A program made the translations under genes and the position numbers. This document shows positions 22,944-42,460 of a stretch of 64,000 nt of DNA, piece after piece. Position 1 is the first letter of the stretch. Each line of letters opens with the position of its first letter. The stretch comes from an uncultured Spirochaetales bacterium (lineage in GTDB: Bacteria; Spirochaetota; Spirochaetia; Sphaerochaetales; Sphaerochaetaceae), in the NCBI GenBank assembly GCA_949293335.1, contig CASFDA010000013.1:1-64000 (forward strand), written 5' to 3'. The notes under the pieces were generated by a model that had not been told where the DNA came from, searched no databases, and saw only the letters and a program-made list of their open reading frames with translations.

Positions 22944-23275
22944 ACTACAGGAGGTTGGTGGAGTTTTCATCAAGAGCGCATACTTACTTGATAACACTCT
23001 ATGTGTTCCTTTTTCTGCTCTTTGCCATCACTCTTGCATTTCCTTCTCCTGACGAGTTTGTAGCGTTTGTCCTCTATTTTTCCTCTCTTCTTTCTTGGCT
23101 GATATTTCTTTTAGGTCTTTTTATAATCTTTTCTTCTATACATCTGAGCATCATTTCGAGAGTGCTTGTCATCAAGCCTCTTTTGCTCACATTCCTACGT
23201 CTTTCTGTAGCATTCATTTTTTCTTTTCTGATAGATTTTGTTAATCAGCTTGTTGTGCAAGGAGTTGGAAAATGA
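22937..23275 (+). CDS. Small integral membrane protein, unknown
   Basis: 112 residues with three hydrophobic segments (about 17-36, 42-66 and 82-103). No family recognised. Overlaps the preceding thiamine pyrophosphokinase gene by 7 bases and the chorismate mutase gene by 4, so it is translated as part of this operon. Confidence 0.6.
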   Translation: MLNYRRLVEFSSRAHTYLITLYVFLFLLFAITLAFPSPDEFVAFVLYFSSLLSWLIFLLGLFIIFSSIHLSIISRVLVIKPLLLTFLRLSVAFIFSFLIDFVNQLVVQGVGK

Positions 23276-23634
23276 CATACAAAGCAATAAGAGGGGCGAC
23301 CTCTGTAGAATTTGATACTGAGAAAGAGATCGATCTTGCAGTGAAGGCAATGATGGAAGAACTTTACGAGAAGAACGGACTTCAGGACGATGATATAGCG
23401 TTCATCCTCTTTTCTCAAACGGAGGATTTGAAGAGCAAGAACGCGGCGGCAGCGTTCCGTTCTTCAACTGGAAAGGGATCGCTTCTTCCTCTTTTCTGTC
23501 TTCAGGAAGCAACAGTGCATGGACAGCTTCCACGAATCATCAGGGTTCTTGTTTCTTTGAAAGAAGAGAGGGAGAACGTATTTGTCGTATATCAGCGGAA
23601 TGGCAGGAAGCTGCGTCCTGACTTTGTGAAATGA
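23272..23634 (+). CDS. aroH: Chorismate mutase, AroH type
   Basis: 120 residues; converts chorismate to prephenate for phenylalanine and tyrosine synthesis. It fits the trimeric AroH fold of Bacillus: start YKAIRGATSVEFDTEKEI with the active-site Arg, the segment DIAFILFSQTEDL, and C-terminal VFVVYQRNGRKLRPDF with the catalytic Arg region. Overlaps both neighbours by 4 bases. Its presence contrasts with the broken trpA elsewhere in the window. Confidence 0.9.
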   Translation: MTYKAIRGATSVEFDTEKEIDLAVKAMMEELYEKNGLQDDDIAFILFSQTEDLKSKNAAAAFRSSTGKGSLLPLFCLQEATVHGQLPRIIRVLVSLKEERENVFVVYQRNGRKLRPDFVK

Positions 23635-37215: not shown

Positions 37216-38316
37216 ATGGAAAACGAATTAGTCACACAAATCATTATGATTGGAGTGGGACTTCTGTTGATTTATCTGGCAATCGGAAAGCAAATGGAGC
37301 CCACTCTCCTTCTTCCGATGGGATTTGGATCTATCCTCGTGAATCTTCCTGGATCTGTTATCGCGGAAGAGCATGGTATTCTCAACTTTCTCTATAATGT
37401 TGGAATCGCAGAGGCGGAAGTATTCCCACTACTGTTGTTCATCGGTATTGGTGCAATGATCGATTTCGGGCCTGTCCTTTCAAAGCCATGGCTCATCTTC
37501 ATTGGTGCCGCCGGACAGGGTGGAATCTTCATTTCTATGGCTATCGCCTCCGCTCTTGGTTTCCAGCTCAACGATGCGGCAAGCATCGGAATCATTGGAG
37601 CCGCTGATGGTCCTACAGCTATTCTCGTAAGCCAGCAGCTTCAGAGCCAGTACATTCCAGCGATTCTTGTAGTCGCGTACTGTTATATGGCTTTGGTCCC
37701 GATAATCCAGCCTGTCGTCCTCAAGTGCACGACGACAAAGCACGAGCGCACGATCAAGATGAAGTACAGCCCGAATGCAGTAAGCAAGAACACACGCATA
37801 CTTTTCCCGATCATCTCAACAATTGTATGCGGACTCCTTGCTCCGGATTCAGCTGCTCTCGTTGGCATGCTCATGTTCGGTAACCTCCTTCGTGAGTGTG
37901 GTGTCCTCAATTCCCTTTCGAATGCGGCTCAGAACATGCTCAGCCCGCTCATCACACTTCTTCTCGGACTTGCAATCGCTCCACAGATGTCTGGAGACAA
38001 GCTCCTGCAGTTCGAGACTATCATGATCATGGGATTCGGACTTGTTGCGTTCATCTTCGATACAGCTTGCGGTGTCTTCTTCGTGAAGATCATCAACCTG
38101 TTCCTGAAGAAGGACAAGAAGATCAATCCGCTTATCGGTGGTGCTGGCATTTCTGCATTCCCAATGAGCAGCCGTGTTGTACAGAAGGTTGGTATCGAGG
38201 CTGACAAACAGAACCATCTCCTTCCATTTGCACTTGGAGCTAATGTCTCTGGTCAGATCGGAAGTGTTCTTGCCGGTGGTCTGTTGCTCTCTATGATCCT
38301 GCCTGTAATGGGCTAA
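37216..38316 (+). CDS. Sodium-ion-translocating decarboxylase, beta subunit
   Basis: 366 residues, about nine helices. The family motif GAADGPTAI (Asp 131) in the Na+ channel matches OadB/GcdB/MmdB; FDTACGVFF near the end and SRVVQKVGIEADKQNHLLPF are also typical. These subunits pump Na+ out while a carboxybiotin group is decarboxylated (oxaloacetate, methylmalonyl-CoA or glutaconyl-CoA). Neither alpha (carboxyltransferase) nor biotin-carrier gene is adjacent; they must be elsewhere. A short second subunit follows 10 bases later. Confidence 0.93.
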   Translation: MENELVTQIIMIGVGLLLIYLAIGKQMEPTLLLPMGFGSILVNLPGSVIAEEHGILNFLYNVGIAEAEVFPLLLFIGIGAMIDFGPVLSKPWLIFIGAAGQGGIFISMAIASALGFQLNDAASIGIIGAADGPTAILVSQQLQSQYIPAILVVAYCYMALVPIIQPVVLKCTTTKHERTIKMKYSPNAVSKNTRILFPIISTIVCGLLAPDSAALVGMLMFGNLLRECGVLNSLSNAAQNMLSPLITLLLGLAIAPQMSGDKLLQFETIMIMGFGLVAFIFDTACGVFFVKIINLFLKKDKKINPLIGGAGISAFPMSSRVVQKVGIEADKQNHLLPFALGANVSGQIGSVLAGGLLLSMILPVMG

Positions 38317-38485: not shown

Positions 38486-38518
38486 GGGCCCATCCTTTCC
38501 GGATGGGTCTAATTTTTT
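38486..38518 (+). terminator. Rho-independent terminator after the decarboxylase pair
   Basis: Stem (G)GGCCCATCC / GGATGGGTCT with loop TTTCC, then AATTTTTT. The last T is the base before the IS left end. Confidence 0.85.
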
Positions 38519-39912
38519 GGCTCTTCACGTTTTTCTGTGGGATTGAGATCTGACAGAAAGGATGGAGATGAACTGAATCAATGAGAAGAAATAGTCTTCA
38601 TCCCTGTATCCATAGGCAATTCTCTTAGCAACCTTAATCCTGTTGTTGAATCCTTCAAGCTTTCCTGTTGAGATCGGATGGGAGGCATGGGCGATGAGCC
38701 CGTCAATCCTCTTCTCTTTGAGTTCGGCGAATCTCACGAGAGCAGGAATACCGCTTGCCTTGGCACCATCAAACCATGCGGTCCAGCCCTTCCTGGCTTC
38801 TTCTGCATCCCTTATATCGAAGAGCCCTTGCCATCTCCTCCTTCATCGCATGGCACAGGGCAAGATCGGCATGGTCATCAAGTATCCTCTTCAGGGATGA
38901 GGCTTCATCATCTGAAAGGCTGTTCTCTCCAGCAAGGAGGATCCATCTTGCACTCTTCACCTCAGAATAAAGACGCTTTTCTTCCTTCATCTCATCCCTG
39001 GGACCTCCGTCCTCCCTCAGCTGCCTTGCATTGTCCCTGTGCTTCCTCGCTTCCTCCAGCCTGACTGTTCCGAGGACATCCTTGCCGAACTGTGCCTGCA
39101 TATGGCATATGCTCGCTTACCAGCGCATTGTATGAGGCATTCATGTCCATCGCCACGGCCTCGACCTCTGAGAGGTAATCCATATCCATTTCATGGAAGA
39201 AGATAGAGAAATCCGCCTTCGTCCTTCCTTTCCCGACCCAGAGAACATCCCCGGTATCGAGATCCATGACGCATGTTGCATACCTGTGCCCCTTGTGGAT
39301 GGCGAACTCATCCACTGCCAGATGCTTCGGCCTGTATCCCTGCATAAGGAGTTCCCGCATCCTGTCTGCAGCCGCCTCATCCATGATCTCTTTCTGTATG
39401 TGCTTTATCGTATCCCAGTGCACCCCTGTGATCTTCTGGACTGTGGAGATAGGTATATTGAAGCGCAGGAATGCGCTTATCCATGACGCGGCACGCTCAT
39501 TTATCCTTGTCCCGGGATACCTGAATGGTATCTCCTCGCAGAATGTCCTTGCGCAGTTCTGGCATCTGTAGCGATGGTGCTCTATCTCCAGATCCTGCCT
39601 CGTCCCTGTATAGACCGGCATGTCCCTCAGCCTCATGCTCAGGCTGCCAAGGATATGCAACATGCCCCTTGCAGTAGGGGCACCTTTCTTCTGCTGTATC
39701 CTTCCGGCTTGCTAGATGCAGTATCAGCCGCTGCCCGTCCTCTGCTATCTCTGTATTGATGTATTCATATGGTTGAAGTGTTGGGTCGTTTGCTATAATT
39801 TGTTCTAAGAGCATGTGTTCGTCCTATGTTTTGTGTGGTAACTAAACTTTAGAACTCACATGCTCTCTTTTTCAATCTTTTTCCCTCATCCCTCATCTTT
39901 CCGTGAAGAACC
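38519..39912 (-). mobile_element. ISL3-family insertion sequence, inactivated
   Basis: 1394 bases. Ends carry an imperfect inverted repeat: left 38519 GGCTCTTCACG, right (minus, from 39912) GGTTCTTCACG; with TG.GGGAT further in, 17 of the first 25 bases match. The interior holds one ISL3-type transposase gene broken by frameshifts. Flanking 8 bases (AATTTTTT, GTAATAAT) are not duplicates, so the element is not flanked by the usual 8-base target repeat; deletion or recombination at one end is likely. Confidence 0.85.
38525..39814 (-). pseudogene. ISL3-family transposase, frameshifted
   Basis: Four overlapping pieces make one protein. Piece 1 (from 39814): zinc-ribbon start, RCPYCKG. Shift near 39665 in a G run. 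Piece 2: RYRCQNCARTFCEEIPFRY, helix-turn-helix INERAASWISAFLRF, and the DDE core (LAVDEFAIHKGHRYATCVMD, AMDMNASYNALVSEHMP). Shift near 39095. Piece 3 (FGKDVLGTVRLEEARKHRDN). Shift near 38810-38830. Piece 4: IAHASHPISTGKLEGFNNRI carrying the last catalytic Glu, then KVAKRIAYGYRDEDYFFSLI. At least three frameshifts, so no functional enzyme. Confidence 0.9.
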
Positions 39913-40029
39913 GTAATAATAGGTTCGAGGATAGTGAAGATAATTGAAGAAAAAGGGAAGGACTCTGTTGCTTCTGTATATACTTTCGCAAAAGAAATAA
40001 GAGAAGCAATCGGTGAGAGTATTGGATAA
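39913..40029 (+). pseudogene. trpA: Tryptophan synthase alpha chain, C-terminal remnant
   Basis: Starting at the base after the IS end, the frame reads VIIGSRIVKIIEEKGKDSVA and continues to SVYTFAKEIREAIGESIG, stop 40027-40029: 38 codons. This is the C-terminus of TrpA, whose conserved loop is DG-V-(I/V)-(I/V)-GS-x-(I/L)-VK-(I/L)-I (phosphate-binding Gly-Ser). Nothing of the other ~220 residues or of trpB is left in the window. A hairpin downstream looks like the original operon terminator. Confidence 0.8.
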
Positions 40030-40072: not shown

Positions 40073-40108
40073 GATGCGGATGGGTAGAATCCCGCATCTA
40101 TTTAATTT
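40073..40108 (+). terminator. Terminator-like hairpin behind the trpA remnant
   Basis: Stem GATGCGG / CCGCATC, 12-base loop, tail TATTTAATTTT. Probably the original end of the lost trp operon. Confidence 0.55.
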
Positions 40109-40129
40109 TACTTATATAAAGGACTTTCT

Positions 40130-41326
40130 ATGAATCTTTCAAAAGTAGTCGTTGATGATATCCATTATGTCGGAGCTAGCGATAGAAGGCTTGCCTTGTT
40201 TGAGAACATTTACCCGATTGACAGAGGTGTGAGCTATAACTCATATCTGGTCATGGATGAGAAAGTGGTTCTCCTTGATACAGTAGATCATTCTGTTGCA
40301 TCCCAGTTCTATGAGAATGTTTATGCAACACTCTCTGGACGTACTATCGATTACCTCATCGTCAATCACGTCGAGCCTGATCATGCTGCCATGATCGGGG
40401 ATATCCTTGAGAAGTTTCCTGCAATGAAGGTTGTTGGAAATCAGCTTATCATCAGGTTCCTCACTCAATTCTTCGGATCGAAGATCGAAGAGCGTGCGTA
40501 TGTGGTGAAGGAGGGTGATGTCCTTGAGACAGGAAAACACAAGTTCACATTCGTGATGGCCCCGATGGTGCACTGGCCTGAGGTGATGATGACCTATGAC
40601 ATGACAGACAAGGTCCTCTTCAGCGCAGATGCGTTCGGAACTTTCGGCGCACTTTCTGGGAGCATCTTTGCAGATGATTATGAGTTTGACAAAGAGTGGC
40701 TTGATGACGCGAGAAGATATTACACGAACATCGTCGGAAAGTATGGCCTCAAAGTTCAGGAAGTCCTGAAGAAGGCAGGTGGAATCGAATTGAAGATGAT
40801 CCTCCCTCTCCATGGCCCGATCTGGAGGAAGGATCTGGGATACTTCATCGGAAAGTATCTTACCTGGGCCAGCTATGGCGTTGAGGAGGAAGGCATCCTC
40901 ATTGCTTATGCATCGATTTACGGGAATACTGAGAATGTTGCCAGCTATCTTGCACTTGCTCTCGGAGAGAGGGGCGTGAAGAACATACACATGTACGATG
41001 TGTCGAAGACAGATCCGTCATACATACTTTCTGATTGCTTCAAGTATGGCAAGGCGCTCTTCCTTTCGCCTACATACAATCTTGGCCTCTTTCCGAAGAT
41101 GGAGACACTCCTTCTTGAGCTCAAGGCCCATCTCTGGCAGAAGAGGAAGGTCGCGCTCGTAGAGTCTGGTACCTGGTCGATCCAGAGCGGCAAGCTGATG
41201 AAGGAGATACTCTCATCACTTCCCGAGATCGAATTCATTGGTGAGAAACCATTTACGATCAAGAGCCACGCTGGTGATGATATGAAGTCAGGGCTGGATC
41301 AGATAGCGGACGAACTTGTAAAATAA
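40130..41326 (+). CDS. A-type flavodiiron protein (FprA-like)
   Basis: 398 residues. The N-terminal metallo-beta-lactamase-like domain has the di-iron ligands NHVEPDH (His 80, Glu 82, Asp 84, His 85), MVHWPE, SADAFG and LPLHGPIWR; the C-terminal flavodoxin domain begins ILIAYASIYGNTENVA. These enzymes reduce O2 to water or NO to N2O, protecting anaerobes from air or nitrosative stress, usually using rubredoxin or coenzyme F420. Typical class A length. Single gene, ending in a terminator shared with the convergent kamA-family gene. Confidence 0.93.
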   Translation: MNLSKVVVDDIHYVGASDRRLALFENIYPIDRGVSYNSYLVMDEKVVLLDTVDHSVASQFYENVYATLSGRTIDYLIVNHVEPDHAAMIGDILEKFPAMKVVGNQLIIRFLTQFFGSKIEERAYVVKEGDVLETGKHKFTFVMAPMVHWPEVMMTYDMTDKVLFSADAFGTFGALSGSIFADDYEFDKEWLDDARRYYTNIVGKYGLKVQEVLKKAGGIELKMILPLHGPIWRKDLGYFIGKYLTWASYGVEEEGILIAYASIYGNTENVASYLALALGERGVKNIHMYDVSKTDPSYILSDCFKYGKALFLSPTYNLGLFPKMETLLLELKAHLWQKRKVALVESGTWSIQSGKLMKEILSSLPEIEFIGEKPFTIKSHAGDDMKSGLDQIADELVK

Positions 41327-41336
41327 GGACAATATG

Positions 41337-41361
41337 GAGGCAGGATTTTCCTGCCTCTAGT
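41337..41361. terminator. Bidirectional terminator
   Basis: Perfect stem GAGGCAGG / CCTGCCTC with ATTTT loop. Plus tail TAGTTTTC. It overlaps the last base of the minus-strand gene that ends at 41357. Confidence 0.75.
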
Positions 41362-42460
41362 TTTCAATTTCATCAAACCAGCACTCTTCTTCATCTAGTT
41401 TGCGTGTGAATATTCTCCCGAGATTATCCCTGTTCTTTGCCTGATGGAACTTGTATATCATCCTGTTTTCCAGAATGCCGAGGATCTCTATCTTTCCTTC
41501 GGGGTGAGACATCACGTATCTGAAAGGCTTTTCAAGCCCGGAGAGCATTCCCTTTGCTCCATCTGTTATTTCAATGCCTCTCTTGAGCGGGACCTGAAAT
41601 TGATTCTTCACGCCTTCCACTGGTCGGCATTGGAAGACGTAGTAGGGCATCACGCCGGAAGAAAGGAGATTCTTCATGAGAAGGGCAAGTGTGTCCGCAT
41701 TGTCATTCACTCCTTTCAAGAGCACAGTCTGATTACGAACCATGCACCCTGAATAGCGCAGCATGGCAATTGCTTTTCTTGCTTCTTCTGTCAGCTCATT
41801 CGGATGATTGAACTGCGTGACGATCGTTATTGGCTTTATCTTGTTGTACCTTTCGAGGATTGATGTGAGTTTTCCATCATCTTCCGTGATGCGATAGGGG
41901 AATGATACTGGCACTCGTGTGCCGAATCTTATGAATTTGATATTCTCCAGAGGAGCAAACGTTTCGAGGTACTTTTCAATCATCTCATCCGAAAGCATGA
42001 ATGCATCCCCTCCGGAGATAAGTATGTTGTCAATTTCCTTGTGTTCCTTCACATAGTGACGCATCTCTGGAAGCTTGGAAGCGATTTCCTCGCTTGACAG
42101 TCCGACAAGACGCTTCCTGAAGCAGTGCCTGCAGTACATTGCACATTGATTTGTTGAGAGTATCAGTGCGGTCTCTCTGTATTTGTGCTGCATTCCCTGA
42201 ACGACAGTATTATCCTTTTCTCCGCTGGTATCAGAACTCCCTCCAGATGAGAACTCCATCAGGGATGGAACAGACATCTTCCTTATAGGATCTGCCAGAT
42301 TATTCTTGTCGATGATCTCAAGATAGTACTTGGGGACTGCTATCGGATAACGCTCTTCGATCTTCCTTATTTCGTTTACTTCCTCATCAGAAAGAAGAAG
42401 TACATTTTTTAGGTCCTCGATACTTGTATAGTTCTCTTCCAGTCTCTTCTTCCAGTTCAT
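41357..42460 (-). CDS. KamA-family radical SAM enzyme (lysine 2,3-aminomutase-like)
   Basis: 367 residues. The radical SAM cluster motif is CAMYCRHC (Cys 106, 110, 113), followed by FRKRLVG; ILISGGDAFMLSDEMI, GTRVPVSFPYRIT and TIVTQFNHPNE are standard KamA-family blocks, and QTVLLKGVNDN follows. Family members move an amino group from C2 to C3 of lysine or glutamate (beta-lysine, osmolyte or EF-P modification). At 367 residues it is shorter than clostridial lysine 2,3-aminomutase, so substrate is not certain. AAAAGGGG precedes ATG 42460; a TATAAT lies in the 5' region. Confidence 0.88.
   Translation of the reverse strand: MNWKKRLEENYTSIEDLKNVLLLSDEEVNEIRKIEERYPIAVPKYYLEIIDKNNLADPIRKMSVPSLMEFSSGGSSDTSGEKDNTVVQGMQHKYRETALILSTNQCAMYCRHCFRKRLVGLSSEEIASKLPEMRHYVKEHKEIDNILISGGDAFMLSDEMIEKYLETFAPLENIKFIRFGTRVPVSFPYRITEDDGKLTSILERYNKIKPITIVTQFNHPNELTEEARKAIAMLRYSGCMVRNQTVLLKGVNDNADTLALLMKNLLSSGVMPYYVFQCRPVEGVKNQFQVPLKRGIEITDGAKGMLSGLEKPFRYVMSHPEGKIEILGILENRMIYKFHQAKNRDNLGRIFTRKLDEEECWFDEIEN

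Follow-up and report, generated by a model that had tools for sequence, protein, structure and literature searches.

A trpA remnant beside a dead ISL3-family insertion sequence in an uncultured gut spirochaete, and the apparent decay of tryptophan synthesis in its genus

In the genome of an uncultured gut spirochaete of the genus Candidatus Ornithospirochaeta, a name already in use (PMC8035907), the 3' end of a trpA gene lies directly against a dead insertion sequence (IS) of the ISL3 family, between the oad operon and an fprA-like gene. The explanation that we favour, with moderate confidence, is that a trpBA pair peculiar to this lineage was lost here through an IS-adjacent deletion, late in a decay of tryptophan synthesis that runs through the genus. 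The locus itself is an ordinary gene relic and a product of ordinary reductive evolution, and it may record one of the late steps by which uncultured gut spirochaetes lost the ability to make tryptophan. A TrpB retained elsewhere in the genome shifts the predicted physiology towards indole salvage and away from a simple tryptophan dependence caused by the IS. The features considered here are collected in Table 1, with coordinates that refer to the window, the whole stretch of 64,000 nucleotides that was analysed (positions 1 to 64,000 of contig CASFDA010000013.1).

Table 1. Features of the window that bear on the trpA locus
Feature	Position	Strand	Evidence
aroH, chorismate mutase type I	23272-23634	+	PF07736, E 6.2e-32
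oadB, Na+-transporting decarboxylase beta subunit	37216-38316	+	PF03977, E 2.3e-140
Small membrane ORF of the oad operon, 45 aa	38327-38464	+	Direct reading; counterpart directly downstream of oadB in sister species G001
oad operon terminator, hairpin (38489-38507) and T-run	38489-38518	+	Sequence; terminator hairpin also here in G001
Decayed ISL3-family insertion sequence	38519-39912	-	DDE_Tnp_ISL3; ends; transposase frames
3' remnant of trpA, 38 codons, start codon absent	39913-40029	+	Identity to congener TrpAs; HMM; Pfam
Hairpin (40073-40098) then T-rich stretch, likely trpA terminator	40073-40110	+	Sequence
fprA-like flavo-diiron protein, right-hand anchor of the locus	40130-41326	+	PF19583, E 1.9e-22, Flavodoxin_1; 74% identical in G001

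The trpA remnant

The forward frame at 39913-40029 translates directly to VIIGSRIVKIIEEKGKDSVASVYTFAKEIREAIGESIG and a stop, 38 codons that correspond to the C-terminus of TrpA. Pfam alone scores this stub weakly (PF00290, Trp_syntA, E 0.087, below the cut-off, profile positions 223-256 of 259), and so comparison with congeners was needed; its matches in the PDB are TrpA C-termini with E values of 0.07-1.4. When full-length TrpAs from congeneric genomes (G numbers) were compared with the stub by tblastn, identity was 57% over 35 aa for G033 and 61% over 33 aa for G035, and 52% and 45% for the proteins of G002 and G010. Identity to the TrpAs of G067 and G063 was 61% and 58%, respectively. An HMM built from six congener TrpAs and run over all six frames of the window returned the stub at E 4.7e-8, with the runner-up at 0.45.

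A short open reading frame might resemble TrpA by chance, and the Pfam score taken by itself could be read in that way. A similar short match in G031 (58% over 24 aa; L109:2725-2796), considered as a second relic between oadB and fprA, did indeed turn out to be spurious, lying inside a P-II-like protein. The separation between the stub and the runner-up in the HMM search refutes this reading for the present case, however, and the identity to TrpA extends over almost all of the stub and takes in the VIIGS motif and the C-terminal helix, with a stop near the point at which TrpA ends; we consider a fortuitous match hardly credible. Similarity is thus present over the TrpA C-terminus, whereas the full barrel with its catalytic residues is missing, only 38 of about 260 codons being left. 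We read the stub as a pseudogene remnant of trpA that would yield no TrpA enzyme. An earlier, sequence-only reading of this DNA had placed a trpA stub hard against the right end of an IS, and the HMM and congener identities bear out both its identity and its position.

The insertion sequence and its junctions

The element encodes a DDE_Tnp_ISL3 domain (PF01610, E 3.1e-18) and has the ends GGCTCTTCACG.../...CGTGAAGAACC, with imperfect terminal inverted repeats of the GGCTCTTC type (ends GGCTCTTCACG and GGTTCTTCACG), and both the transposase and the repeats are as expected for the ISL3 family. The transposase frames run 2-0-1-2, equivalent to three frameshifts, which bears on activity and not on family membership; the IS is a dead member of its family, a point that the sequence-only reading had left unmentioned. 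The octamers that flank it differ (left AATTTTTT, right GTAATAAT), confirming the claim that there is no 8-bp target duplication. Such a duplication is a property of the insertion event and is lost if a deletion or recombination takes one flank, and so the family assignment rests on the transposase and the ends. The stub starts on the base right after the right end of the IS, and the left end adjoins the T-run of the oad terminator, as had also been described.

Five further partial copies of the IS lie elsewhere in the genome and no complete copy was found in it, so that this IS family looks inactive here. The trpA piece is absent beside the other right-end copies and is therefore not part of the element, and the flanks of the other copies, as read, contain neither trp fragments nor oad sequence of the kind expected from a reciprocal recombination product. 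For the deletion, neither a second joint nor a donor site can be seen. A deletion that starts at the exact end of an IS, with no duplication, fits an IS-adjacent deletion and recombination between two copies equally. Adjacent deletions made by ISL3 and other DDE insertion sequences are established, and the present case is like them in that the end of the deletion is the end of the IS and the target duplication is missing; no difference from them was apparent, the present element having decayed with frameshifts. Literature searches on IS-linked trp loss and on adjacent deletions by ISL3 elements yielded nothing directly useful.

The locus in related genomes

The left-hand anchor of the locus, oadB, was found in 48 of the 48 genomes of the genus that we sampled. 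In the sister species (G001; OadB 92% and FprA 74% identical) fprA lies about 45 bp past the oad terminator, and the space between them holds neither an IS nor a trp gene. Near relatives (G003, G023, G019 and G020) carry an aminotransferase and a pyridoxal decarboxylase gene in this interval, identified by Pfam for G003, and G031 has a P-type ATPase-like gene there, judged from its sequence. In every relative examined the interval from oadB to fprA is free of trp genes, and the intact trp operon that the sequence-only reading had anticipated at this position was seen in none of them. This counts against that reading, but two points are in its favour: the genome has no full operon elsewhere, and the alignment of the stub to TrpA holds. 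The lack of trp genes there in relatives implies that trp genes were present here only in this lineage, or that they were cleanly removed in G001.

The same comparison bears on a different history, in which a rearrangement brought the IS and an already broken trpA fragment here together and no working trp gene ever stood between oadB and fprA. The lack of trp genes at this position in the sister species and the outgroups would suit such a history, as would the variability of the oadB-fprA spacer within the genus, which holds the aminotransferase and decarboxylase pair, the P-type ATPase or nothing. Against it, the stub has a hairpin of its own behind it and fprA comes immediately after, which is the arrangement that a resident gene would show at its 3' end, and the pairing of IS and trpA piece does not recur at the other right-end copies. 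We regard arrival in a broken state as unlikely, and prefer the loss of a resident gene.

Tryptophan genes across the genus

Many of the 48 genomes are incomplete MAGs, so that single absences are weak evidence but the pattern over all 48 is not: TrpC was found in one genome (G010) and the TrpE N-terminus in three (G010, G028 and G070), leaving 47 and 45 genomes, respectively, in which they are missing. Full-length TrpA is encoded in six (G002, G010, G033, G035, G063 and G067), each time adjoining trpB, although the trpB of G035 is split between frames and that of G033 runs into the end of its contig. Congeners carry TrpA of the type closest to the stub only in trpB-trpA pairs, and the closest copies have no trpC after the pair. 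The sister species also lacks trpA.

Several genomes appear to have been caught with the pathway in decay. The operon on contig C5 of G010, trpE-G-D-C-F (L077:10064-14503), has frameshifts in E, G and D, with C and F still open; it adjoins oadB, on the side away from fprA. In G070 and G028 (loci L092 and L066) a 5' piece of trpE lies near 3' pieces of trpB and trpA beside mazG, a collapsed operon, and in G017 (L067) a 3' piece of trpA lies beside mazG. The routes of dismantling would differ, with a link to an IS at the present locus and either a collapse within the operon or decay by frameshifts in G028, G070, G017 and G010, and the genus offers a natural series for the decay of a pathway: frameshifted operon, collapsed operon, trpBA only, relic and nothing.

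These data are difficult to reconcile with the history first proposed for the locus, in which the IS, or recombination between two copies of it, removed a whole trp operon at this site and in doing so made the strain dependent on external tryptophan. The genome does lack trpA, trpC and trpE, and in G010 a trpEGDCF operon does adjoin oadB, albeit on the opposite flank. Given, however, that TrpC and TrpE are missing in nearly all 48 genomes, that the oadB-fprA interval of the relatives examined is free of trp genes, and that the site is empty in a sister species which is itself without trpA, we judge this history to be quite improbable. Because TrpC and TrpE are missing across nearly the whole genus, the loss of de novo synthesis did not depend on this IS, and auxotrophy cannot be attributed to one IS event. 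What survives from that proposal is a trpA relic abutted by an IS with no duplication, in a genome that has no full trp operon; the loss of an operon at this site is unsupported.

Tryptophan genes elsewhere in the genome

The genome (1.92 Mb in 35 contigs, 99.09% complete) encodes no TrpA, TrpC or TrpE above the family cut-offs. PF00290 matches of 15-20 bits occur in many congeners and at C13:252883 in this genome, and were rejected as TrpA, being partial, below the cut-off and located in other open frames (mostly of about 250-290 aa). The genome-wide search that the sequence-only reading had called for did return an intact, stand-alone trpB (G000:C6:16490-17623; L095:8415-9713) with no trpA neighbour. 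Its product scores 571 bits against TIGR00263, for which the curated cut-off is 392, and keeps the active-site motifs with K87, E109 and S377 (GAHKIN, AETGAGQHG and LSGRGDKD), the PLP lysine included. It is 88% identical to the copy in G001, with pN 0.085 against pS 0.75 and synonymous change saturated, and the protein is under strong purifying selection. No RNA leader above threshold was detected at the gene.

Stand-alone TrpB is present in 38 of the 48 genomes, as counted from rows at 55-59% identity. In a tree of TrpB the stand-alone and trpBA-type proteins form two separate, fully supported groups, and the protein from this genome falls beside that of G001. A C-terminal extension (...YPLxEYEPEE...GYDEFLSHIGG) is common to the orphan TrpBs of the genus.

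The stand-alone TrpB could convert indole and serine to tryptophan, a predicted activity that sits poorly with the strict dependence on external tryptophan claimed earlier. The genome further encodes two ABC_sub_bind proteins, and since this family includes the tryptophan-binding component TrpX, they make tryptophan uptake a possible, putative, second route. The strain is best described, at the level of gene content, as a predicted indole or tryptophan user. It has kept aroH, as the sequence-only reading stated.

Proposed history and comparison with known systems

In the history that we favour, trpA was probably the second gene of a trpB-trpA pair that stood between the oad operon and fprA in this lineage only. 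An ISL3-family element would have inserted into trpA, and a deletion running from its exact outer (left) end would have taken out the remainder of trpA, along with the genes before it, up to the oad terminator, after which the IS would have decayed by frameshifts. The loss would have come late in the genus-wide decay of trp genes, trpEGDCF having gone earlier, and the need for tryptophan would then probably have been met by uptake and/or by joining the indole of gut neighbours to serine. The content of the lost segment is reconstructed from one 38-codon piece, with no genome carrying an intact trp gene at this position, and is most likely to have been trpBA because the TrpA type of the stub survives in the genus in that form. 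A trpBA pair without trpC would itself have been indole-dependent, and so the cell may have stayed in the same nutritional class after losing it. More tentatively, members of the genus may have repeatedly dismantled the trp operon and trpBA pairs and kept a divergent stand-alone TrpB, which would represent a switch from tryptophan synthesis to the salvage of indole from neighbours.

Indole salvage with strain-specific loss of trpA is familiar from the trpRBA genes of Chlamydia trachomatis. There, as here, the de novo trp genes are reduced, trpA is lost and TrpB-type chemistry and indole salvage are at issue, but the spirochaete TrpB is intact, unlinked and stand-alone, and the trpA relic is found at a different locus, next to a dead IS. 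The TrpBs of Bifidobacterium and Thermococcus kodakarensis make tryptophan from exogenous indole and serine, and other gut bacteria are known to salvage exogenous indole through TrpB (PMC11085991). The spirochaete TrpB would join the same two substrates, although the bifidobacterial enzyme is fused to TrpC with trpA present, and T. kodakarensis differs in having two TrpBs with a biosynthetic role (PMC11085991).

Additional observations

TrpA-like barrel proteins that are about 25% identical to TrpA (L096:3570-4352, L097:15703-16503, L068:1820-2605 and L069:10179-10952) are encoded with sugar ABC transporter genes on one side and an FGGY kinase gene on the other, close to trpBA in G063 and G067. 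These proteins of sugar-transporter clusters (G002 contig C71, G005, G063 and G067) were left out of the TrpA count, the one tested scoring just under the TIGR00262 cut-off, and this TrpA paralogue possibly has an aldolase-like role. To the right of the locus, a kamA-like (lysine 2,3-aminomutase-type) radical SAM gene lies at 41357-42460 of the window on the reverse strand, between fprA and a cytidylate-kinase-like gene. It is absent between those neighbours in G001 and in the near relatives with an annotated locus, and appears to be a second lineage-specific insertion here.
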